Part shown: piece by piece, positions 35,516 to 59,308 of the stretch | How positions within the stretch are numbered: position 1 is the stretch's first letter | Layout of the letters: every line of letters begins with the position of its first letter | From: Rivularia sp. MS3 | GTDB taxonomy: Bacteria; Cyanobacteriota; Cyanobacteriia; Cyanobacteriales; Nostocaceae | DNA: 59,308 bases | Direction of reading: 5' to 3' | Assembly: GCA_019192545.1 (NCBI GenBank) | Contig: JAHCMI010000059.1 | Span: 1 to 59,308 of the forward strand | Position numbers and translations under genes: made by a program | Notes under the pieces: generated by a model | Database searches by the model: none | Told to the model about the DNA's origin: nothing | Seen by the model: the letters and a program-made list of their open reading frames with translations, nothing else

Positions 35516-38086
35516 CTACGACATTTTCAATCCTGCTCTATCAGCTGAATATTCGTCGAGTTTGATTTCACAGGGTTCTATGTTCCAAATTTCTTGACAA
35601 TATTCCCAAATTGCCCTATCTGAAGAAAATTTACCCATGCGTGCGGAGTTAATTATAGACATGCGAGTCCAGTTTTCTGTATCCCGATAAGCTTCAGAAA
35701 CTCGATCCTGGGTATCAATGTAGGATTGATAATCGGCAAATAACATAAACCTATCTTGGTTAAACAGCGAGTCTAAGAGAGGTTTAAATAAATTGCGATC
35801 CCCGTCGGAAAAATGTCCGCAAATAATTAAATCAATGACTTCTTTTAAATCGGGATTGGATTCGTAATATTTTCTGGGGTTGTATCCTTTAGCTTTCAAG
35901 TCATAAACTTCTGGGGTGGTTAAACCACATAAGAAAAAGTTTTCCGCGCCGACTTCTTCACGGATTTCGACGTTGGCACCGTCGAGGGTTCCGATTGTCA
36001 AAGCACCGTTGAGAGCAAATTTCATATTACCAGTTCCGGAAGCTTCTTTCCCCGCAGTAGAAATTTGTTCGGAAAGTTCTGCACCTGCGTAGATAAATTG
36101 ACTGGAGGATACGTTGTAGTTGGGGATAAATGCGACTTTTAAACGCCCTGCGACATCAGTGTCATTATTAACGACACTACCAACGGCATTGATTAACTTA
36201 ATAATCAATTTAGCAATGAAGTAACCGGGGGCTGCTTTACCTGCAAAAACAAAGGTTCTGGGTTGAATATCAGCGCTGGGATTTTTCTTAATGCGATTGT
36301 ACAAGGTGATGATGTGGAAAGCATTGAGTAGCTGACGCTTGTATTCGTGGAGTCGTTTTACCTGTACGTCAAACAAGGAATTAGTATCTACTGTAATTCC
36401 GGTAGATTTGTTGATTAGCTTTGCTAAGTCTTCCTTGTTTGCTTGTTTGATTTCGCGCCAAGTTTTTCTGAACTCTTTGTCATCCAAGAATTTTTCTAAT
36501 TTCCGGAGCTCATCAAGATTCTTAATCCAGTCGGTACCAATCTTGTCAGTAATTAAACGAGAAAGTCGGGGATTACCCATTAATAACCAGCGGCGGGGAG
36601 TTACACCGTTCGTCTTGTTAATAAACTTCTCGGGGAATAGCTCGTAAAAATCGTGAAGCACGTCTGTTTTGAGCAATTCGGTATGCAGCGCTGCTACACC
36701 ATTGATTTTGTAACTACCGACGCAAGCTAAATGTGCCATGCGGACTTTCTTTTCGCCACCTTCTTCAATCAAAGATAGTCGAGAAATGCGTTCTAAATCT
36801 TTGGGATAGCGTCTTCTGACTTCACTTAAAAAGCGGAAGTTGATTTCGTAGATAATTTCTAAATGTCTGGGTAATAATCTACCGAACAATTCCACCGGCC
36901 AGCGTTCTAAAGCTTCTGGCAGCAAGGTATGGTTAGTATAAGCAAAGGTATTTTTAGTAATATTCCATGCTTTATCCCAAGGCATTTGATGCTCGTCAAT
37001 CAGCAGACGCATTAATTCAGCGATACCAACTGAAGGATGGGTATCGTTAAGCTGAATTGCAGCTTTTTCATGCAAATTATCTAAAGTGTCAAAAAGTCGG
37101 TGGTGTCGGCGCAGAATATCTTGCAAAGAACAAGAAACAAAGAAATATTGTTGCTGCAAGCGTAATTCTTTACCCTGCATTGTATCGTCGTTAGGGTAGA
37201 GAACTTTTGAGATGTTTTCCGAGAACATTTGACTACCTACCGCGCCGATGTAGTCACCAGCATTAAACGCCTGTAAGTCAAATTCATCAGTTGCCTCAGC
37301 TTTCCACAACCGCAGAATATTGACTGTATCAACGCCATAGCCCGGTACCGGAGTATCGTAAGGGACTCCAGATACTTTTTGCTGCGGTACCCATCGTACT
37401 TGAAAGCGTCCGCTTCTATCGTTGTATACTTCAGTATGACCGCCGAACTTTACTTCTACGCGATATTCGGGAAGCGGAAGTTCCCAAGCATTGCCAAACA
37501 GCAACCATTTATCGGGGTTTTCAACTTGCCAACCGTTGCGAATAACTTGTTCAAAAATCCCGAACTCATAGCGAATACCATAACCGACGGCGGGGATTTC
37601 CAGAGTTGCTAAAGAATCGAGATAGCAAGCTGCAAGCCTTCCCAAACCACCGTTACCCAATCCCGGTTCCCGCTCTTGCTCTAATAAATCGTCTAATTCT
37701 AAGCCCGATTCTTGCAGAACAGTTTTGATTTTTTCGTAAAGACCAAGATTAATTAGACTATTACCCGTATAGCGTCCCATCAAAAACTCAGCCGAAAGGT
37801 AATAAACAGTTTTTACACCATTCTCTGAATGAGTTTTAGCTGTTTGAATCCGTCTTTGCAAGATGCGATCGCGAACGCTATGAGCGACAGCCATATAGTA
37901 ATCGTGGGGAGTCGCAAAATACTCACCTTTACCTTGAACGTAATAAAGACTATCGGCAATGGCACGTTTGAGGGTTTCCTCACTCATACCAGTTCTGTCA
38001 TCTTCTACCCTCACTTTAGCCGTGGTAGGTACAGAAACATCTTCCGGTGCTAATCTATTATATTTTTGCTCGGATGAACTAGTCAT
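35516..38086 (-). CDS. glgP: Glycogen phosphorylase
   Basis: An 856-residue GT35 phosphorylase, releasing glucose-1-phosphate from glycogen. It has YYLSAEFLMGRYTGNSL, the glucose-binding loop REPGLGNGGLGRLAACYLDS, QLNDTHPSVGIAELMR, and the PLP-Lys region EASGTGNMKFALNGALTIGT near residue 684. NVEIREEVGAENFFLCG follows. The length fits bacterial enzymes. It lies in the island between the phosphoketolase and D-LDH genes, consistent with glycogen mobilisation feeding fermentation. Heptamer-rich spacers flank it on both sides. Confidence 0.98.
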   Translation of the reverse strand: MTSSSEQKYNRLAPEDVSVPTTAKVRVEDDRTGMSEETLKRAIADSLYYVQGKGEYFATPHDYYMAVAHSVRDRILQRRIQTAKTHSENGVKTVYYLSAEFLMGRYTGNSLINLGLYEKIKTVLQESGLELDDLLEQEREPGLGNGGLGRLAACYLDSLATLEIPAVGYGIRYEFGIFEQVIRNGWQVENPDKWLLFGNAWELPLPEYRVEVKFGGHTEVYNDRSGRFQVRWVPQQKVSGVPYDTPVPGYGVDTVNILRLWKAEATDEFDLQAFNAGDYIGAVGSQMFSENISKVLYPNDDTMQGKELRLQQQYFFVSCSLQDILRRHHRLFDTLDNLHEKAAIQLNDTHPSVGIAELMRLLIDEHQMPWDKAWNITKNTFAYTNHTLLPEALERWPVELFGRLLPRHLEIIYEINFRFLSEVRRRYPKDLERISRLSLIEEGGEKKVRMAHLACVGSYKINGVAALHTELLKTDVLHDFYELFPEKFINKTNGVTPRRWLLMGNPRLSRLITDKIGTDWIKNLDELRKLEKFLDDKEFRKTWREIKQANKEDLAKLINKSTGITVDTNSLFDVQVKRLHEYKRQLLNAFHIITLYNRIKKNPSADIQPRTFVFAGKAAPGYFIAKLIIKLINAVGSVVNNDTDVAGRLKVAFIPNYNVSSSQFIYAGAELSEQISTAGKEASGTGNMKFALNGALTIGTLDGANVEIREEVGAENFFLCGLTTPEVYDLKAKGYNPRKYYESNPDLKEVIDLIICGHFSDGDRNLFKPLLDSLFNQDRFMLFADYQSYIDTQDRVSEAYRDTENWTRMSIINSARMGKFSSDRAIWEYCQEIWNIEPCEIKLDEYSADRAGLKMS

Positions 38087-38315
38087 TATGGTGATGTTGG
38101 TAAGATATTAAATCTACAATTATTTCTAACCTATAGCTTTATAACATTCTCTTCGTTTTGCTTGGGTTTCTTATTAAGAATTAAGAATAATAATGGGGAA
38201 TGGAGAGAGGGGAGAGGGGGAAACAGTGAGCAAGTAGTAAGTAGCAAGTAGCAAGTTACCAATTACCTATTACCAATGCCCTATACCCAATCCTCCATGC
38301 CCTATTCGCAAATTT

Positions 38316-40694
38316 TTAATATTCCCACTTCCAGTCGCGAATTTCGGGCATATCCTCGCCGTGTTCCCGAACGTATTGCTTGTGTTCGATTAGTTTTTCA
38401 TGCAACATTTGTTTGATATGAGCCGCTTTATATCCCAGATGAGGAACTCTGTCAATTACATCATCTGCTAAGTTAAAACGGTCTAAATCGTTCATGACCA
38501 CCATATCAAAAGGTGTGGTTGTAGTTCCTTCTTCTTTGTAACCTCGGACGTGGAGGTTTTTGTGATTTGTGCGACGATACGTTAAACGATGAATCAACCA
38601 GGGATAACCATGAAAGGCGAAAATTATTGGTTTGTCGGTGGTGAAAATGCTATCGAAGTCTTTGTCGCTTAAACCGTGGGGATGCTCGCTCTCTGGCTGT
38701 AAGGTCATTAAGTCTACTACGTTGACTACCCTAATTTTTAGTTCTGGAAAATGATCCCGCAATATATCTACCGCTGCTAAGGTTTCTAGGGTGGGAGTGT
38801 CTCCAGCGCAAGCCATGACTACATCTGGTTCGTGTCCTTGGTCGTTAGAAGCCCAACCCCAAATACCTACACCTGTAGTACAATGCTTGATTGCTTCATC
38901 CATATTTAGATACTGCAATGCTGGTTGTTTGCCCGCTACAATTACGTTAACGTAATGACGACTTCTCAAGCAATGGTCTGTTACGGATAGCAGACAATTG
39001 GCATCGGGTGGTAAATATACTCTCACTACTTCGGCTTTTTTATTCACAACGTGGTCGATAAAGCCGGGATCTTGATGGCTAAAGCCGTTGTGGTCTTGTC
39101 GCCATACGTGAGATGTTAATAAATAAGTTAAAGAAGGAATTGGTCTGCGCCAGGGAATATCGCGAGTAGTTTTCAACCATTTTGCGTGCTGGTTGAACAT
39201 AGAATCGATGATATGAATAAATGCTTCGTAGCAAGAAAATAATCCGTGACGACCTGTAAGCAAGTATCCTTCTAACCAGCCCTGACAAGTATGTTCGCTG
39301 AGTATTTCCATTACCCGACCGTCTGCGGCTAAGCTATCGTCGTATTCTAAAGTTTCTGCTACCCAAGTTCTTGAAGTTACATCCAATACATCAGCTAGGC
39401 GGTTGGATGCAGTTTCATCCGGCCCAAATAAACGGAAGTTTTTAGTATCTAGATTAAGTTTCATTACATCGCGCAGCAATTTACCCATAACGCGGGTTGC
39501 TTCGGCGACGGTATTCCCTGGTTCTACTTCTACTGCATAGTTACGAAAGTCGGGCATTTTCAATTCTCGCAGCAGAATACCGCCGTTAGCATGGGGATTG
39601 TCGCCCATGCGCCGATTTCCTTCGGGTGCGAGTTCGGCTAATTCGACAATTAATTTACCATTTTCGTCAAATAATTCTTCTGGCTTATAGCTTTTCATCC
39701 ACTCTTCTAACAACTTAACGTGAGCGGGTTCTGCTGCCATATTTGATAGCGGTACTTGGTGCGATCGCCAGTAATCTTCAGTCTTTTTACCATCAACTTC
39801 TTTCGGTCCAGTCCAGCCTTTGGGACTCTTAAGAATAATCATCGGCCATTGCGGACGCTGCTTAAAGCCATTTTGACGCGCATCTTCCTGAATTTCTCGG
39901 ATTTCATGCAAAGCTGTATCCAGGGTTGCTGCCATTAATTGATGCATGGCAACTGGATCGGAACCTTCAACAAAATAAGGCTTGTAACCGTAACCTTCAA
40001 ATAATTTTTGCAGTTCCTCATGACTCATCCGAGCTAATAAGGTGGGGTTAGCAATTTTATAACCGTTGAGGTGTAAAATCGGCAAAACTGCACCATCATG
40101 AATGGGATTAAGAAACTTATTAGAATGCCAGCTTGTTGCTAAAGAACCGGTTTCTGCTTCACCATCACCAACAACGCAAGCCACAATCAAATCGGGATTA
40201 TCAAAAGCAGCACCATAAGCGTGAGAAACCGAATAGCCGAGTTCGCCACCTTCATGGATGGAGCCGGGAGTTTCCGGCGCTACGTGAGAGGGAATGCCAC
40301 CGGGGAAAGAAAACTGTTTGAATAGTTTTTGCATTCCCTCGCTATCTTGAGAAATATTCGGATAATATTGGCTGTAAGTTCCTTCAAGATAGGTATTAGC
40401 AACCAAACCGGGACCACCATGTCCGGGGCCTGCAATATAAATTATATTTAAATCATCTTTTTTGATTACCCGATTGAGATGAACGTAAATAAAGTTCAAA
40501 CCAGGGGTAGTTCCCCAATGTCCTAAAAGTCTGGGTTTAACGTGTTCTAATTTCAGCGGTTGCTTAAGTAAAGGATTATCTAATAAATATATTTGTCCCA
40601 CCGAAAGATAATTCGCCGCATTCCAGTAGGCGTTCATCTTTCTTAATTCGTCGTTTTGCAGTGGTTTAGTGTTGGGAAGAGTAGAAACAGTCAT
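38316..40694 (-). CDS. xfp: Xylulose-5-phosphate/fructose-6-phosphate phosphoketolase
   Basis: A 792-residue thiamine-diphosphate phosphoketolase, splitting xylulose-5-P or fructose-6-P with phosphate to acetyl phosphate. Diagnostic blocks are [20 protein letters not shown], the TPP motif [34 protein letters not shown] and [17 protein letters not shown] start at ATG 40694, because aaggag lies six bases upstream, rather than at the TTG two codons earlier. Its product is the substrate of ackA in the same island, and transaldolase can replenish its substrates. A 1-kb promoter-side spacer precedes it. Confidence 0.97.
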
Positions 40695-40700
40695 GGACAA

Positions 40701-53479: not shown

Positions 53480-54313
53480 CTAATTAGCCATTATTTTTTT
53501 ATCTATAGGGAAAAATTCCAAACGATATTTATATAAAGCAACTGGTTGATTTACTGCTTTAAAATAATTTGGATCTTGAGATGAAAGATAAACTGCTGTA
53601 ACTTGATTCGCTTCTATTATGGGATTCAATGCAGATGCTTGAGACAATTGCTTATATGCCGTAGTTGATTCAACGGTATTAATGTACGGAACCGAACTAC
53701 CTTTAAATAGCTGTTCAAATACTTCTGCTGTAATAAATTTACCGTCGTCTGTATTTTCTATGGCGCGATTTTTGACGATGGATACTAACTGGCGATCGCA
53801 ATTAATTCTTTGCGTACATTCACTGCGTAAAAATGTAATTTGTCGATTAGGAGAATCGGGATCTACTTTAACTGCTTTAACTGCCTCCTCACCTAAAACT
53901 GCTCGGGCTAGATTCAATCCGTTGTAAGCTCTGTCGGCAATAACCTCACCCCCCTCCCCTCTCCTTGTAAAGGAGAGGGGTGTCCGATAGGACGGGGTGA
54001 GGTTTTTTACCTTTGATTGATTAACAAATCGAACTTTAAAACTAATTGGTTGGTTAAGATACTGACGATTACTTTCAAACCCCGGTGTCACAATATCTGG
54101 CGCTAGCGGAGCAAATAAATCTATTAAGGTACTTTTTACTTCCCATTCCCCCTTCATCCATTCGGGATAAATTAAGTCTCCAACCGCAGGTTTTACGGAA
54201 GTTAACTTTTGCCATTCGGGAAAGTTGTTTAATTTTTGATTCAATTCTCCAGCAGTGGCATCGCTACAGAAAACTGATAAAAAAATCATGCAAATAATTA
54301 TTAAGAGCTTCAT
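53480..54313 (-). CDS. DUF6816 family secreted protein with a repeat insertion
   Basis: A 277-residue protein. The N-terminal signal peptide (KLLIIICMIFLSVFCSDATA) precedes FPEWQKLTSVKPAVGDLIYPEWMKGEWEVKSTL and LAPDIVTPGFESNRQYLNQPISFKVRF, which I recognise as the DUF6816 pattern of cyanobacteria and plastids (from memory; function unknown). Residues encoded at 53942-54004 (NLTPSYRTPLSFTRRGEGG) are read from a palindromic dispersed repeat of 63 bp, that is 21 in-frame codons, inserted between KVK and IADRAYNG. I start at ATG 54313, not the upstream TTG at 54322. Confidence 0.78.
   Translation of the reverse strand: MKLLIIICMIFLSVFCSDATAGELNQKLNNFPEWQKLTSVKPAVGDLIYPEWMKGEWEVKSTLIDLFAPLAPDIVTPGFESNRQYLNQPISFKVRFVNQSKVKNLTPSYRTPLSFTRRGEGGEVIADRAYNGLNLARAVLGEEAVKAVKVDPDSPNRQITFLRSECTQRINCDRQLVSIVKNRAIENTDDGKFITAEVFEQLFKGSSVPYINTVESTTAYKQLSQASALNPIIEANQVTAVYLSSQDPNYFKAVNQPVALYKYRLEFFPIDKKIMAN
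53942..54004. repeat. 63-bp palindromic repeat in frame inside the DUF6816 gene
   Basis: The arms aacctcaccccc... and ...ggggtgaggtt surround a ctctccttgtaaaggagag core. It is a close relative of the repeat at 14562-14622. Its length of 63 bp keeps the frame and adds 21 residues to the protein. Confidence 0.88.
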
Positions 54314-54864: not shown

Positions 54865-55746
54865 ATGAGTCTTAGTAGTTCTTTTACAGATTTTTCCTTA
54901 GCTGAGTTGTTTCAACTTATCGAGCAAGGGCGTAAATCGGGTTGTTTGAGTGTATGTACTTTGCCAGATATTAATTCTCCAGAATCTAGAGCAAAATACT
55001 TTTATATTTGGTTTAGAAGCGGACGTATTATTGCTGCGGCGAATCGTTTAAGCGGTAGAGGTTTAGTTTCTAAAATCGCACAAAGAAGTTGGGCAGAGCC
55101 GCAGGTTATAGAAACCATTTATAGTAATGCATCTGCAACTACACCTTTAGGATTGCAGTTCAAAACACAAGATGTTTTAAGTGCCGAACAATTAAATTTA
55201 TTATTTGCCAGTCAGTTACAGCAAGTCAGACAATTATTTGAAATTCAGAAAGGTGTATTTAAACTTGATTGCAAAGCTGTTTTACCAATGTCTGAAATGA
55301 CAGGATTAAGCTTAAAAGCTACAGAAGTGACTTTAATGGCTTTGAGAGTATTGAAAAACTGGAAACTTCTTGAAGATGCGCTTCCGAATATAGAATCCGG
55401 GTTTAAAAATATTAGTAATAATCAACCACAACTTCGCTTGAATCCTTTTGAATGGAGATTATGGGAATTTGCTTCTGGGGATATTTCCATAAAAGATATT
55501 GCCATGCAATTAAATCAGCCAACCATCAAGATTCAGCAAACAGTTTTCCGATTAATGCTTGTAGGTTTAATAGAAGAAGTACCTCAGATAACATCAAATA
55601 CTCACGAGTACCATTATGATATGGATTTAACTTGGGTCAAAAAATACGGTTCGCGAGCAGCTAAAAAACATCAAGAATCGCAAACACCCAAAGTTAGTAG
55701 TTCGCTACTGCAAAATCTTGTAGGGTATTTAAGGAGTAAAGCTTAA
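54865..55746 (+). CDS. DUF4388 domain protein
   Basis: A 293-residue protein. The N-terminal SSSFTDFSLAELFQLIEQGRKSGCLSV and FYIWFRSGRIIAAANRLSGRGL are the DUF4388 (PATAN-like) pattern found in bacterial two-component and gliding proteins. The second half is helical, with a possible winged-helix-like region (GDISIKDIAMQLNQPTIKIQQTVFRLMLVGLIEEV, about residues 210-245). Its stop TAA shares one base with the ATG of the next gene (TAATG at 55744-55748), so it is translationally coupled to the GTPase. A role as scaffold or partner of the GTPase is inferred from this coupling. Confidence 0.85.
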   Translation: MSLSSSFTDFSLAELFQLIEQGRKSGCLSVCTLPDINSPESRAKYFYIWFRSGRIIAAANRLSGRGLVSKIAQRSWAEPQVIETIYSNASATTPLGLQFKTQDVLSAEQLNLLFASQLQQVRQLFEIQKGVFKLDCKAVLPMSEMTGLSLKATEVTLMALRVLKNWKLLEDALPNIESGFKNISNNQPQLRLNPFEWRLWEFASGDISIKDIAMQLNQPTIKIQQTVFRLMLVGLIEEVPQITSNTHEYHYDMDLTWVKKYGSRAAKKHQESQTPKVSSSLLQNLVGYLRSKA

Positions 55747-56291
55747 TGTCATCAGAAATTCTCCGTATTGTAGTTACAGGAGGTGTAGGAGCAGGAAAAA
55801 CAACATTTATTCAAACAATTAGCGAAATTGATGTCGTTGACACTGATAAAAGAGCAACTGATGAGTTAGCAGAATTAAAAGAAAAAACTACAGTTGCTCT
55901 GGATTTTGGCAAATTAACAATTACAGCTAATCAATCATTACACTTATACGGTACTCCCGGACAAAGTAGATTTGATTTTATGTGGGACATTTTAATTCAA
56001 AAAGCCCACGCTTTCATTCTTTTGATAGATGCACATCGTCCAAATCAGTTCCGTCACGCCCGTAAGCTTTTGAACTATATGAATCAATTTGTGTCTATTC
56101 CAAAATTGATTGGAATAACTCATACTGATTGTGCTGATGCATGGGAAATAGAGGATATAGCTTTAGCGTTAGGGTTTCAAGATGAGGCTGATTCAACTCC
56201 CATAATGGCTGTTAATGCTAACCAACGCGAATCGGTATTTCAAGCATTAATTACAATTGTTGAGCAGTTAGTAGTGAACAGTGAGCAGTGA
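55746..56291 (+). CDS. MglA-like small Ras-type GTPase
   Basis: A 181-residue small GTPase. The G1 P-loop is GGVGAGKTTF (residues 12-21). A switch-I-type Thr-rich segment (KEKTTVALDFGKL, about residues 46-58) follows. G3 is LYGTPGQSRFDFMW, G4 is ITHTDCADAWE (THTD in place of NKxD) and G5 is possibly VNANQ. The GTPGQ and TVALDFG features match bacterial MglA-group and related GTPases. It overlaps the DUF4388 gene by one base. The last nine residues (EQLVVNSEQ) and TGA are encoded by a heptamer repeat array, so the protein's tail has been rewritten by repeat DNA. Confidence 0.88.
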   Translation: MSSEILRIVVTGGVGAGKTTFIQTISEIDVVDTDKRATDELAELKEKTTVALDFGKLTITANQSLHLYGTPGQSRFDFMWDILIQKAHAFILLIDAHRPNQFRHARKLLNYMNQFVSIPKLIGITHTDCADAWEIEDIALALGFQDEADSTPIMAVNANQRESVFQALITIVEQLVVNSEQ

Positions 56292-56344
56292 GCAGTGAGC
56301 AGTGAACAGTGAATAGTTAGCAGTGAACAGTGAATAGTTAGCAG
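56261..56344. repeat. Heptamer array of 12 units overlapping the GTPase 3' end
   Basis: Twelve 7-bp units (tgagcag, ttagtag, tgaacag, tgaatag variants) run from inside the coding region to 56344. In-frame reading gives EQLVVNSEQ and TGA at 56289-56291. Confidence 0.92.
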
Positions 56345-56565
56345 CTTTCTTTATGAGTAGTAAGTAATAAATAGCGGGTTACTAGTTATTAATACTCAAT
56401 GTCTCATGCTCAAATTTAAATTTGTAAAACATAAAGTATAAATAATATCTTCTTATTCTTAAGTTAACCTATTTCGTTTTAAAATTTACCAAGTCTTGAG
56501 GCAAGCGTATAAATTACGCTTTAAAGTAATCAATCCCCAAGATAACGCTCAGGAGTCTGCAATCA

Positions 56566-57165
56566 ATGCCTCTGGGTAACATAATCAAGCTTCTAAAAGA
56601 AGCATTTCAAAAGCCTCCTGCGGAGTCGGTAGACTCTTCGGAGTTGACAGAAACAGAAACTTCTCAACCAAGAGAAAGTTCGGAAAATACTGACTTAACG
56701 CAAAAACAAGTTAATGAAACAACATTAACTCAGCCTTATACAGAAACTAGAGAAACTACTCAAACATCTTTACCAACAATTCTGGAGGAACAAAAAATGA
56801 TTAACGTTTCTATGTTGCAAGACGAACTGCAAAATTTTGTAAGTGCTGCTTCTGACGTTCAAGGTGCTGCTTTAGTAAGCCCTGATGGTTTGGCTTTAGC
56901 TTCAGTTTTACCTGGAGGAATGGACGAAGAACGTACTGCTGCTATGTCTGCATCCATGCTTTCCCTAGGCGAACGCATCGGAAGGGAATTAGCCCGTGGA
57001 AGCATTGATAGAATTGTAGTTGAAGGTGAAAAAGGATACGGGGTATTAGTTGGCTGTGGAGCTGATGCTGTTTTATTGGTTTTAGCTGGTGCTGGTGTTA
57101 AACAAGGTTTATTGTTTTTAGAAGTTAAAAGAGTTGTTGCTAAAATTGCGCCGTTAATGGCTTGA
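56566..57165 (+). CDS. Roadblock/LC7 domain protein (MglB-like)
   Basis: A 199-residue protein. The N-terminal 77 residues are Ser/Thr/Glu/Gln-rich and probably disordered. A Roadblock/LC7 domain follows (about residues 82-198), with LQDELQNFVSAASDVQGAALVSPDGLALASVLP, ASMLSLGERIGRELARG and VEGEKGYGVLVGCGADAVLLVLAG. Roadblock proteins such as MglB are GTPase-activating partners of MglA. Being the next gene after the GTPase, it is the likely regulator. A second start with a strong SD exists at 56797 and would give the bare domain. Confidence 0.92.
   Translation: MPLGNIIKLLKEAFQKPPAESVDSSELTETETSQPRESSENTDLTQKQVNETTLTQPYTETRETTQTSLPTILEEQKMINVSMLQDELQNFVSAASDVQGAALVSPDGLALASVLPGGMDEERTAAMSASMLSLGERIGRELARGSIDRIVVEGEKGYGVLVGCGADAVLLVLAGAGVKQGLLFLEVKRVVAKIAPLMA
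56784..56799 (+). promoter_or_regulatory. Strong internal ribosome binding site and start in the Roadblock gene
   Basis: The sequence ggaggaacaaaaaatg places a near-consensus SD seven bases before an in-frame ATG at 56797 (residue 78). A product from here, MINVSMLQDEL..., is a complete 122-residue Roadblock domain without the disordered N-terminus. Confidence 0.65.
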
Positions 57166-57461
57166 GTAGAAACTCCAAATAATCCATATACCGATGTTTG
57201 GATTGGTGATTTTATTTAATTCCAGTCCAAATTTTTTATGCGGTTGGTAAACGCTTTCAAGACAAGCACAGTAGGTTTGTGCTTAGCGATGACAAAAATA
57301 GTGTATTGGAATTCTACGAATTTCAATAGATTCATTTGTTTTTTTTATAACCAATTGTAGCGAATTAGCTTGACTTAGTTTCAGTATTAAGGAATAACTT
57401 GACTGATACTAAGATTTATATTTTTGACGATTTTTTTGATAAATAACAGGAGTTACTTGGA
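57166..57461. other. Spacer before the protoglobin gene
   Basis: About 300 bases. A hairpin aagcaca / tgtgctt (57264-57284) without T-run lies in the middle. A caggag SD (about 57448) nine bases before ATG 57462 serves the protoglobin. No gene was seen. The spacing suggests the protoglobin may have its own promoter. Confidence 0.5.
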
Positions 57462-58016
57462 ATGGCTATAGAACCACAAGCGTTTATGTCAACCTTGGAG
57501 CAGCGCGTTGGCTTAAGTGCAGAAGATAAAGCGCTATTAAAATCTCAAGCAGAGTGGGGAAAGGAAATTGCTCCAGAAATGGCAGAACATTTTTATGCTT
57601 ATCTAGGGCGCGATGAAGAAATGAATTCAATCTTAACTGCCACCGAAGGACGCATTCATCGTTTGCGAGAAACGTTTATAGAATGGTTCTACGAGATGTT
57701 TACAGGTATGGATGATTGGGGTAAAGATTATGCCGAACGCCGTTGGAATATTGGTTTAGTTCACGTGAAGATTGGTATCGGACCGCAGCATGTTGTCCCT
57801 GCAATGGCAACTGTAATTAGAGAAGCCGGACAGCGTGCAAAAACCGACGGCAAAAGCGAAGAAATTAAAGATGCTTTAGGGCGTATTTGCATGATTGATT
57901 TAGCTTTTATTGAACAGGCTTATGTAGAAGTATCTTCAGAAGCTGTGTTAAGAGAAACTGGTTGGACTCAAGGTTTATTTAGACGTTTAATAGCTACTGG
58001 GGCTAATTCTATGTAA
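57462..58016 (+). CDS. Single-domain protoglobin (haem gas-sensor globin)
   Basis: A 184-residue protein composed of one protoglobin/globin-coupled-sensor domain. It has the N-terminal QRVGLSAEDKALLKSQAEWG, a helix ending in FIEWFYEMFTGMDDWGKDYAERRW, and the proximal haem His near residue 101 in NIGLVHVKIGIGPQHVVPAM. The sensor family binds O2, CO or NO; ligand preference cannot be read. There is no output domain, so signal must pass through a partner. The GTPase/Roadblock genes just upstream are candidates by location only. A terminator follows. Confidence 0.9.
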   Translation: MAIEPQAFMSTLEQRVGLSAEDKALLKSQAEWGKEIAPEMAEHFYAYLGRDEEMNSILTATEGRIHRLRETFIEWFYEMFTGMDDWGKDYAERRWNIGLVHVKIGIGPQHVVPAMATVIREAGQRAKTDGKSEEIKDALGRICMIDLAFIEQAYVEVSSEAVLRETGWTQGLFRRLIATGANSM

Positions 58017-58027
58017 ATTCATTCAGG

Positions 58028-58060
58028 AGGTAGAAATTATCGTTATTTTTTCTACCTTTT
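58028..58060 (+). terminator. Rho-independent terminator after protoglobin
   Basis: The stem aggtagaaa / tttctacct with a 12-base loop is followed by tttt. It starts 12 bases after the protoglobin stop codon. Confidence 0.8.
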
Positions 58061-59308
58061 GATTTCAATTCTTGTTTAATAAAAAAACTATTCTTTGTAA
58101 AAAAGTTTTTACTATAGTTGTTATCAATGTAATGGCTTGATGCCGTTTTTTTATTCTTTAATTCAAAAAGTAATATTTTGCATTTTTTATCATATATGTA
58201 TAGCAAACAACTTTTATTTTGCAGGCATTACAGCCGCTTTATAACTGCTTATAGACATTAATATTAATGAAATATATTAGCAACTAATTATATTAGAAAG
58301 AAGCAATTTATACGCATAATCATCAAATATTGTCAACTGACATAGGGTTAGATTTATCAAAATATTAACTGCGCTATCACTTACTTGACAAAAACAATAA
58401 TTTATATATACTGATATTTATACTGACAAAAGAATAAAAACTACAAACGGTGGTTCTACCTGGTATATGCTGTGTTTTTATCAAGATGCAGGGTATAAAA
58501 GCAAGTTTGTTTGTAGTTGATTTACACTCAGCGCAAATAAGAGCATAGGTGTGTTTTTGAGATAGTTGATTAAATTTATTAAAATTACTTTCAAGGCGCA
58601 TATTAAGCGTAAATTGATGTAGTTAGTAAGCAAATTTTCTGTCTCGCAAATTAGATTCCCCAACAGCGTGCTTCAAGAAAATGATATTAGCCTATTGGCT
58701 TCTATTTGCGTAAATAAATAGCTAAGCAATAGAGATATCTATATTGCTTGATAAACTAATGATTTAAAATTTGTTTTCATGGCTGAAGTTAGACTTTGAT
58801 TAGTCTTAAGCTTCGTGCTTTTGTTTACCTCTATGAAAGGTATTTAATCTATGTAATCGAGTTTAAGCTTTTATAAACAGTTTTTTAGTTTGCTGTCGTA
58901 GATAAAATTTTTTGTCTCGACTAAAACTACTTAGACTTAACTATGCCTGCCATGAATAGATGAATTTAATTAGTAAGCTAATAGATGCAAACCGTATAAA
59001 AGCAAGCAAAGCTTAGACTATAGGCATAATTAAACGATCAAATTTCTTCGATTGCCCAAGGCTTTCATGAAGATTTTATGGCAGACTTATTTAAACGCTA
59101 AGCTAATTATAATTTTGCAGTTTTCGTTGAATACAGGAATTGAAAACTGCTACATATCAAATATTTCTTTTTTAATCTTCTTCCCAACATCATCGTTAGA
59201 CTTATTTTTATGCCCTAAGTATGGGTAAATATTAGCGTGCCAAATTTTAAAACTTTTGGCTCATCAGTTGTTAGTATGCTAAATTCTGAATAAAAATTAC
59301 CGAAATAT
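58061..59308. other. Gene-free AT-rich right end
   Basis: About 1.25 kb with no credible gene on either strand. The two or three short open frames here are AT-rich, lack ribosome sites and have no recognisable domains. No tRNA-like cloverleaf or CRISPR unit was seen. The stretch could be the long leader of a gene beyond the window or hold an unrecognised small RNA. Confidence 0.5.

Follow-up and report, generated by a model that had tools for sequence, protein, structure and literature searches.

A protoglobin gene kept beside a Ras-like GTPase, a Roadblock protein and a PATAN protein across cyanobacterial lineages

Four neighbouring genes of the cyanobacterium Rivularia sp. MS3 form not a chance cluster but a conserved neighbourhood. 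They lie on contig JAHCMI010000059.1 (assembly GCA_019192545.1), in a stretch of 59,308 nucleotides that was analysed as a whole and that we call the window, and they encode, in this order, a protein of the DUF4388 family (a domain that we take to be the same as PATAN), a small GTPase, a Roadblock/LC7 protein and a protoglobin. We refer to them as D, G, R and P, and to a fifth family found at related loci as F5. The linkage of PATAN genes with MglA and MglB is already known, as is a fusion between a globin and a Roadblock domain; the part that appears to be new is the stable cyanobacterial set with a stand-alone sensor globin. P very likely works as a partner within the GTPase module. We give a little less than even odds (roughly 0.45) to the fuller reading in which the four proteins make up a gas-sensing input module that acts on a bacterial Ras-like GTPase switch, connected by a PATAN adaptor to the pilus motor.

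Results

We followed the neighbourhood in 80 cyanobacterial loci, the best 80 of 426 relatives picked by similarity to G in a scan of named genomes. Their open reading frames (ORFs) were assigned to D, G, R and P by phmmer, and since each ORF begins at its first start codon, gap lengths are approximate. Whichever module genes are present, they share one strand in 80 of the 80 loci. P stands within the chain in 48 loci, and in 40 of the 53 that have at least 2.5 kb of flank on both sides; the R cluster was found in 67, contig ends having cut some of the loci. The chains that contain P come in several orders, namely D-first (DGRP and its variants, 20), PRGD (19), RGDP (8) and GDPR (1). In a quick tree of G with 82 rows, the presence of P switches at least 10 times and the class of P-containing order at least four times. 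Because orders vary between lineages while membership is kept, gene order is labile and membership holds. Where G follows D, 28 of the 38 gaps measure from -4 to +6 bases, and where R follows P, 14 of the 20 gaps are no longer than 81 bases. Outside the module and F5, the most widespread ORF cluster reaches at most 16 of the 80 loci, against 48 for P. Relatives from several cyanobacterial lineages do keep the set, then, on one strand and in shuffled orders, as the original prediction made from the window needed them to. At six Anabaena-type loci (L066, L071, L085, L090, L103 and L107), R-G-D-P has upstream of it, on the same strand, a HisKA_3 histidine kinase and a LuxR-type regulator (Pfam was run on the L066 copies).

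The co-occurrence of P and G was tabulated in two genome samples, one of the family (60 genomes) and one of the phylum (156 genomes), with some genomes common to both. Weak G matches of 23-30% identity were excluded from the tables of strong matches (G010, G019 and G036 in the family sample, G081 and G067 in the phylum sample), as were those P matches of the phylum sample that were weak or broken (in G063, in G097, in G108 with 31% identity, and in G151, a fragment). In the family table G014 is scored as having both genes, although they lie there as adjacent broken pieces, and a single internal stop interrupts the G match of G003. So defined, strong G occurs in 35 of the 60 family genomes and P in 27, with both in 26, P only in one (G032), G only in nine and neither in 24 (Fisher 2.9e-8, kinship ignored). 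The phylum sample has strong G in 16 of 156 genomes and P in 14, all 14 among the 16 (both 14, P only 0, G only 2, neither 140; Fisher 3.8e-18, kinship again ignored). The tabulation that the original prediction had proposed therefore puts the pairing of P with G far above chance in both samples. The two genes are also close: coordinate tables read by hand place P at most 1.8 kb from the G match in 26 of 26 family genomes, G014 counting by its remnants, and when the weak P of G108 is included, which sits 1.4 kb from that genome's own G, 15 of 15 phylum genomes with both have the pair within about 1.7 kb. In G014 the broken remnants of G and P are found side by side at C1:239829-241537. A plasmid search with P gave zero matches. 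The possibility that the globin is independent of its neighbours, which had been allowed for at the outset, is rejected by the persistence of P with G across lineages, orders and genome samples; an unrelated neighbour is likewise rejected on the 48 of 80 loci together with both genome tables.

P is a stand-alone protein, as had been proposed: Protoglobin is the sole Pfam domain in its 184 amino acids (E 4.1e-18), so that it has no output domain in the same chain and is not a globin-coupled sensor in that sense. Its closest solved relative is Tlr1989 (PDB 8h17), which it matches over the full length at E 1.2e-87, and at one locus (L162) a P that is 100% identical to Tlr1989 belongs to a P-R-G-D set with successive gaps of 72, 34 and 24 bases. 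His101 of P aligns with HemAT position 123 and Tyr45 with position 70, presumably the proximal haem-ligand histidine and the distal tyrosine, respectively. Neither residue varies among the 71 P sequences, of which 69 are distinct at 99% identity. With its Protoglobin domain, proximal histidine and distal tyrosine, P has the residue pattern of protoglobins and sensor globins, and it probably senses a haem ligand. The 27-residue C-terminal tail of P is conserved like the globin core in the same 71 sequences (0.78 versus 0.77). A protoglobin of Thermosynechococcus elongatus was found by Alam's group, according to PMC1457004.

G is matched in Pfam by ATP_bind_1 (1.1e-12), Ras (6.8e-8) and Arf (1.5e-6), and in a profile search against the PDB the best 60 of 194 chains are all of Ras, Arf or Rab type. 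Across 86 G sequences, G1 has the canonical form, G2 is TT and lacks the arginine, G3 reads YGTPGQxRF and G4 reads T-H-x-D; YGTPGQ, RF and the histidine and aspartate of THxD are invariant, and the G4 threonine is present in 84. Group 1 of MglA is defined by an intrinsic arginine next to the G2 threonine and by TVPGQ at G3 (PMC4316618). G has neither, T48 and T49 being threonine and G3 being GTPGQ in 86 of 86 sequences. Having threonine in place of the G2 arginine and a coupled Roadblock gene, G falls within MglA Groups 2-5 taken broadly, and by motif comparison only it lacks the [NT]KxD of Group 5, position 126 being histidine in 86 of 86. The original description of G as MglA-like thus stands at the level of the family, and fails for the Group 1 arginine, for TVPGQ and for [NT]KxD, which THxD replaces. 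Short repeats (GTGAACAGTGAGCAGTGA...) make up, by eye, the 3' end of the G gene and the start of the G-R gap (window 56275-56345).

The Robl_LC7 match of R covers residues 85-174 (E 2.5e-15), and its solved relatives include 7f8m (E 3.2e-23) and CvnB5 3leq (6e-10). R comes in two sizes, 43 of 72 R ORFs having 120-139 amino acids and 28 more than 150, and 21 of the 28 long ones belong to the D-first clade. The N-terminal extension in this clade (window 56566-56800) begins, in the ten rows aligned, with a conserved stretch of M-x-LGx type, and is possibly a membrane anchor or the product of an alternative start. Such a start may be the internal ATG at 56797, which has the ribosome-site-like stretch GGAGGA and would give a protein of 122 amino acids. 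As for D, a C-terminal tail of the form S-x-SFLQNLVGFL is conserved in most rows of an alignment of 35 homologues, and a profile search of D against the PDB returned nothing under E 0.18. A weak match to HTH_47 (E 0.022) was found in the paralogue of D only.

The original prediction had considered a separate promoter and terminator between R and P, and here the evidence divides: there is a terminator-like hairpin at the window (Table 1), whereas P and R are 2-81 bases apart in other lineages. Two of the nearest relatives, L034 and L035, retain the stem of this hairpin, L035 being without a T-run by the rule used. Compared with shuffled sequences, the fold has a z of -2.55 at the window, -2.87 in L035 and -0.72 in L034, the last being not better than the shuffles. 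A simple promoter and terminator scan came out at chance (18 promoter-like stretches versus 16.1 expected, 2 terminator-like versus 2.2), and missed this hairpin with its loop of 15 bases, which the alignment revealed. A uniform scan for hairpins in the gaps, run without a shuffled control, found them in 4 of 21 R-P gaps (window, L034, L046 and L055) and in 1 of 39 R-G gaps, and in 0 of 20 P-R, 0 of 39 D-G, 0 of 28 G-R and 0 of 45 G-D gaps. Given these R-P hairpins, P may be transcribed partly on its own in the lineage of the window.

F5 is the other recurrent member. It lies inside the chain or at most 0.5 kb from it in 37 of the 80 loci, on the same strand every time. In the 60-genome sample 34 genomes have F5, and 32 of these also have strong G, while three strong-G genomes are without F5; it is absent at the window locus and present at the second module of the same genome. 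When 37 members were scanned with Pfam, none rose over any cut-off. V4R matches at E up to 1 appeared in three of the 37, the best of them scoring 19.9 bits across its last 50 residues, with a cut-off of 31, so that F5 does not belong to V4R/TRAPPC3 by profile; there is also a weak match to DUF7317 (E 0.0021). The NCBIfam scan covered two members. In an hhalign comparison with 21 profiles, in which controls scored 9.4-20.5, a subset of five V4R proteins came top (31.3, probability 34%), all 11 V4R proteins together scored 27.1 (13%) and the other subset of six scored 17.8, within the range of the controls. The apparent likeness of F5 to V4R is therefore weak. A profile search of F5 against the PDB gave nothing under E 0.44, and an alignment search of 292 genomes found close members in 15, broken pieces in one and no useful remote members.

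The second module of the Rivularia genome, on contig C139, has the order F5-R-G-D and is followed by PATAN-REC, REC-like, CheW-like, GAF-MCP and CheA-like genes (PATAN-REC, GAF-MCP and CheA-like named by Pfam, REC-like and CheW-like by eye). The PATAN-REC protein beside the D paralogue matches PF14332 at E 1.2e-5. The same order is found in G049, where the MCP and the CheA-like gene were assigned by position and sequence start. These neighbours are a lead to chemosensory control, not proof of it.

ORF coordinates and Pfam agree with the original prediction in placing the four genes of the window on the plus strand (Table 1), and likewise D and G do overlap by a single base, 55746 (TAATG), and R and P are 296 bases apart. 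Upstream of D, Pfam identifies phosphopantetheinyl-transferase, alpha/beta-hydrolase, response-regulator and DUF6816 genes; the first is HetI-like. The DUF6816 reading frame contains a palindromic repeat, seen by eye, at window 53940-54000. Elsewhere in the window (35516-40700, minus strand), a gene of the glycogen phosphorylase type adjoins a phosphoketolase gene.

Table 1. Features of the window locus, with the fifth family at related loci
Feature	Position	Strand	Basis
D: DUF4388/PATAN protein, 293 amino acids, no receiver domain	54865..55746	+	ORF list; Pfam PF14332, E 1.3e-23
G: small Ras-like GTPase, 181 amino acids	55746..56291	+	ORF list; Pfam ATP_bind_1, Ras, Arf
R: Roadblock/LC7 protein, 199 amino acids from first ATG	56566..57165	+	ORF list; Pfam Robl_LC7
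R-P hairpin, terminator-like (11-pair stem, loop of 15, T-run)	57196..57232	+	Alignment and folding
P: single-domain protoglobin-type globin, 184 amino acids	57462..58016	+	ORF list; Pfam Protoglobin
Hairpin directly 3' of P, possible terminator	58023..58062	+	Folding, z -3.46 for 58017-58110
F5: uncharacterised family tied to the module, ~153 amino acids	L003 6453-6914 and 37 loci among L038-L112		

Discussion

We propose that P would bind O2 (or NO or CO) in its His/Tyr haem pocket and, since its chain carries no output domain, would signal by protein contact. It would act on R, which would be a GTPase-activating protein (GAP) or a scaffold of G. The GTP-bound form of G would control D, a PATAN adaptor without a receiver domain, and D would act on a motor, for example the type IV pilus extension ATPase PilB, in the manner of the PATAN regulators PixG and PixE. 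This control of the motor would alter where or whether pili extend. This chain from globin through Roadblock protein, GTPase and PATAN protein to the pilus motor is the simplest way to join the parts; the linkage and the residues are what the data show, and each step between them is a proposal, as are the gas gating and the effects on motility, hormogonia or polarity of the original prediction. We put forward the pilus or motility output tentatively, with rather more doubt than belief. There is precedent for single steps of such a pathway: the Synechocystis PATAN-REC regulator PixG interacts with PilC and PilB1 (PMC12288463), Myxococcus PilB is recruited by MglA and its effector SgmX (PMC11580455), and the authors who described the globin-Roadblock fusion HGbRL propose a relay of ligand binding from the globin to the Roadblock domain (PMC4476040).

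Several observations weigh against the gas-gated switch. P is missing from nine of the 35 strong-G genomes of the family sample, so that the module would be able to work without it. A second, lone P stands away from the full module in six sampled genomes (L153-L158), four of these copies (L154-L157) having a common neighbourhood that differs from the module, and the globin would therefore be able to act elsewhere; in one genome (L159) the chain is R-F5-P without G. The Fisher tests take no account of common descent, and similarity to G was the very criterion by which the 80 loci were selected. The terminator-like hairpin between R and P argues against a single transcript at the window, and guanine specificity can only be presumed for a GTPase with THxD at G4. 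Finally, the PATAN-REC relative is found near G in only two of 60 family genomes (G000, the Rivularia genome itself, and G049; E 1e-60 or better, by eye), for which reason we judge a general chemosensory link to be weak.

P might instead be a haem protein with a protective or NO-metabolising role, encoded at the same place and shielding either the cell or the GTPase machinery, its proximity reflecting co-regulation and not signalling. The protoglobin of Methanosarcina acetivorans is reported to have nitrite-reductase and peroxynitrite isomerisation activities (PMC4020757), and both the lone copies in six genomes, four of them sharing another neighbourhood, and the hairpin ahead of P at the window would suit such a role. 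However, P without strong G is rare (one of 27 family genomes and none of the 14 phylum genomes with strong matches), P persists through changes of gene order, and its 27-residue tail, conserved like the core, fits a partner surface. We consider this protective role unlikely. Alternatively, a gas-gated GTPase switch could exist and have its output in development or gene expression, not motility. The name PATAN comes from PatA, a protein of heterocyst patterning. D has no receiver domain and may carry a winged helix in its C-terminal part, the paralogue of D has the weak HTH_47 match (E 0.022), and the six Anabaena-type loci have the histidine kinase and LuxR-type regulator genes upstream of the set on the same strand. 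Yet the module is also present in Pseudanabaena, in Nodosilinea and in the genome with the Tlr1989 protein, all lineages that are not known to form heterocysts, so that heterocyst patterning is not its general output, and the paralogous module of Rivularia adjoins a chemosensory cluster. We consider a developmental output equally unlikely.

A more elaborate version of the gas-gated switch would have five parts. The haem gas sensor and F5, as a V4R/TRAPPC3-like ligand-binding protein, would both feed a Roadblock-GTPase core with a PATAN effector, converting O2 and perhaps lipid signals into local control of the pilus motor. We regard this as quite improbable; if it were true, a cyanobacterial operon would bring together the components from which eukaryotic Rab/Rag regulators are built. 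Chance or inherited synteny, in which the genes are neighbours only through common descent, is disfavoured and very improbable: the Fisher tests do ignore phylogeny, and upstream genes (DUF6816 and others) are also common to the nearest group, but order differs across lineages with membership constant, and ORF clusters other than the module and F5 occur in at most 16 of the 80 loci where P occurs in 48.

The claim that no described system has this make-up was too strong, because PATAN genes near MglA and MglB (PMC4316618) and a globin-Roadblock fusion (PMC4476040) had both been published. The former (Wuichet and Sogaard-Andersen, 2014, citing Makarova 2006) describes MglA Groups 1 and 5, which likewise combine a small GTPase, a Roadblock partner and occasionally a nearby PATAN gene, Group 5 being reported from Cyanobacteria. 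Group 5 fits [NT]KxD according to that paper, in contrast to the THxD of G, and the systems described have no globin, a word that occurs 0 times in the paper. HGbRL, the fusion of a globin and Roadblock/LC7 from Methylacidiphilum, likewise couples a globin input to Roadblock. However, it is a single chain whose globin is placed with HGbI and the flavohaemoglobin-like globins and not with protoglobins, and it is reported to be unique to Methylacidiphilum, where a separate MglB-MglA-like pair is encoded (PMC4476040). PixG, PixE and PatA share the PATAN/DUF4388 domain with D, which differs in having no receiver domain. Tlr1989, the Thermosynechococcus protoglobin of structure 8h17, is matched by P over its full length, and the identical protein is found inside a P-R-G-D set; it has reportedly been studied in isolation, and in the open-licence literature we found no paper that names it.

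The actinobacterial conservon CvnA-D is likewise an operon with a GTPase and a Roadblock protein, and G also goes without the Group 1 arginine and the G4 lysine. Where the conservon has the CvnA kinase and CvnC, the cyanobacterial set has PATAN, a globin and F5, as far as the flanking families were identified; the CvnA kinase and CvnC are not among the identified flanking clusters, part of the flanking ORFs having been scanned, and the HisKA_3 kinase is upstream in six loci. GTPase, Roadblock and TRAPPC3-V4R proteins of Asgard archaea (PMC10933270) would represent the same three folds if F5 were V4R-like, a homology that is weak, and the cyanobacterial set adds PATAN and a globin to them. According to the same source, the GTPase genes of MK-D1 do not as a rule share operons with genes for Roadblock, longin or TRAPPC3 proteins. 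For a cyanobacterial set of four to five genes with a stand-alone sensor globin, we found no paper in the open-licence literature, among the matches listed.

How cyanobacterial cells rapidly switch direction is described as still unclear in a paper on Thermosynechococcus phototaxis (PMC9090330), and a 2025 review of cyanobacterial type IV pili uses the words "GTPase" and "MglA" 0 times in its main text (PMC12288463). The conserved combination of GTPase, Roadblock and PATAN proteins, equipped with a sensor globin, offers a concrete candidate for that rapid switch. The structure of one such globin has been solved, and the genus it comes from is one where imaging of single pili has been achieved, so the idea is directly testable. 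If it is right, this would be, to our knowledge, the first known Ras-like GTPase pathway with a separate, dedicated gas-sensor subunit.

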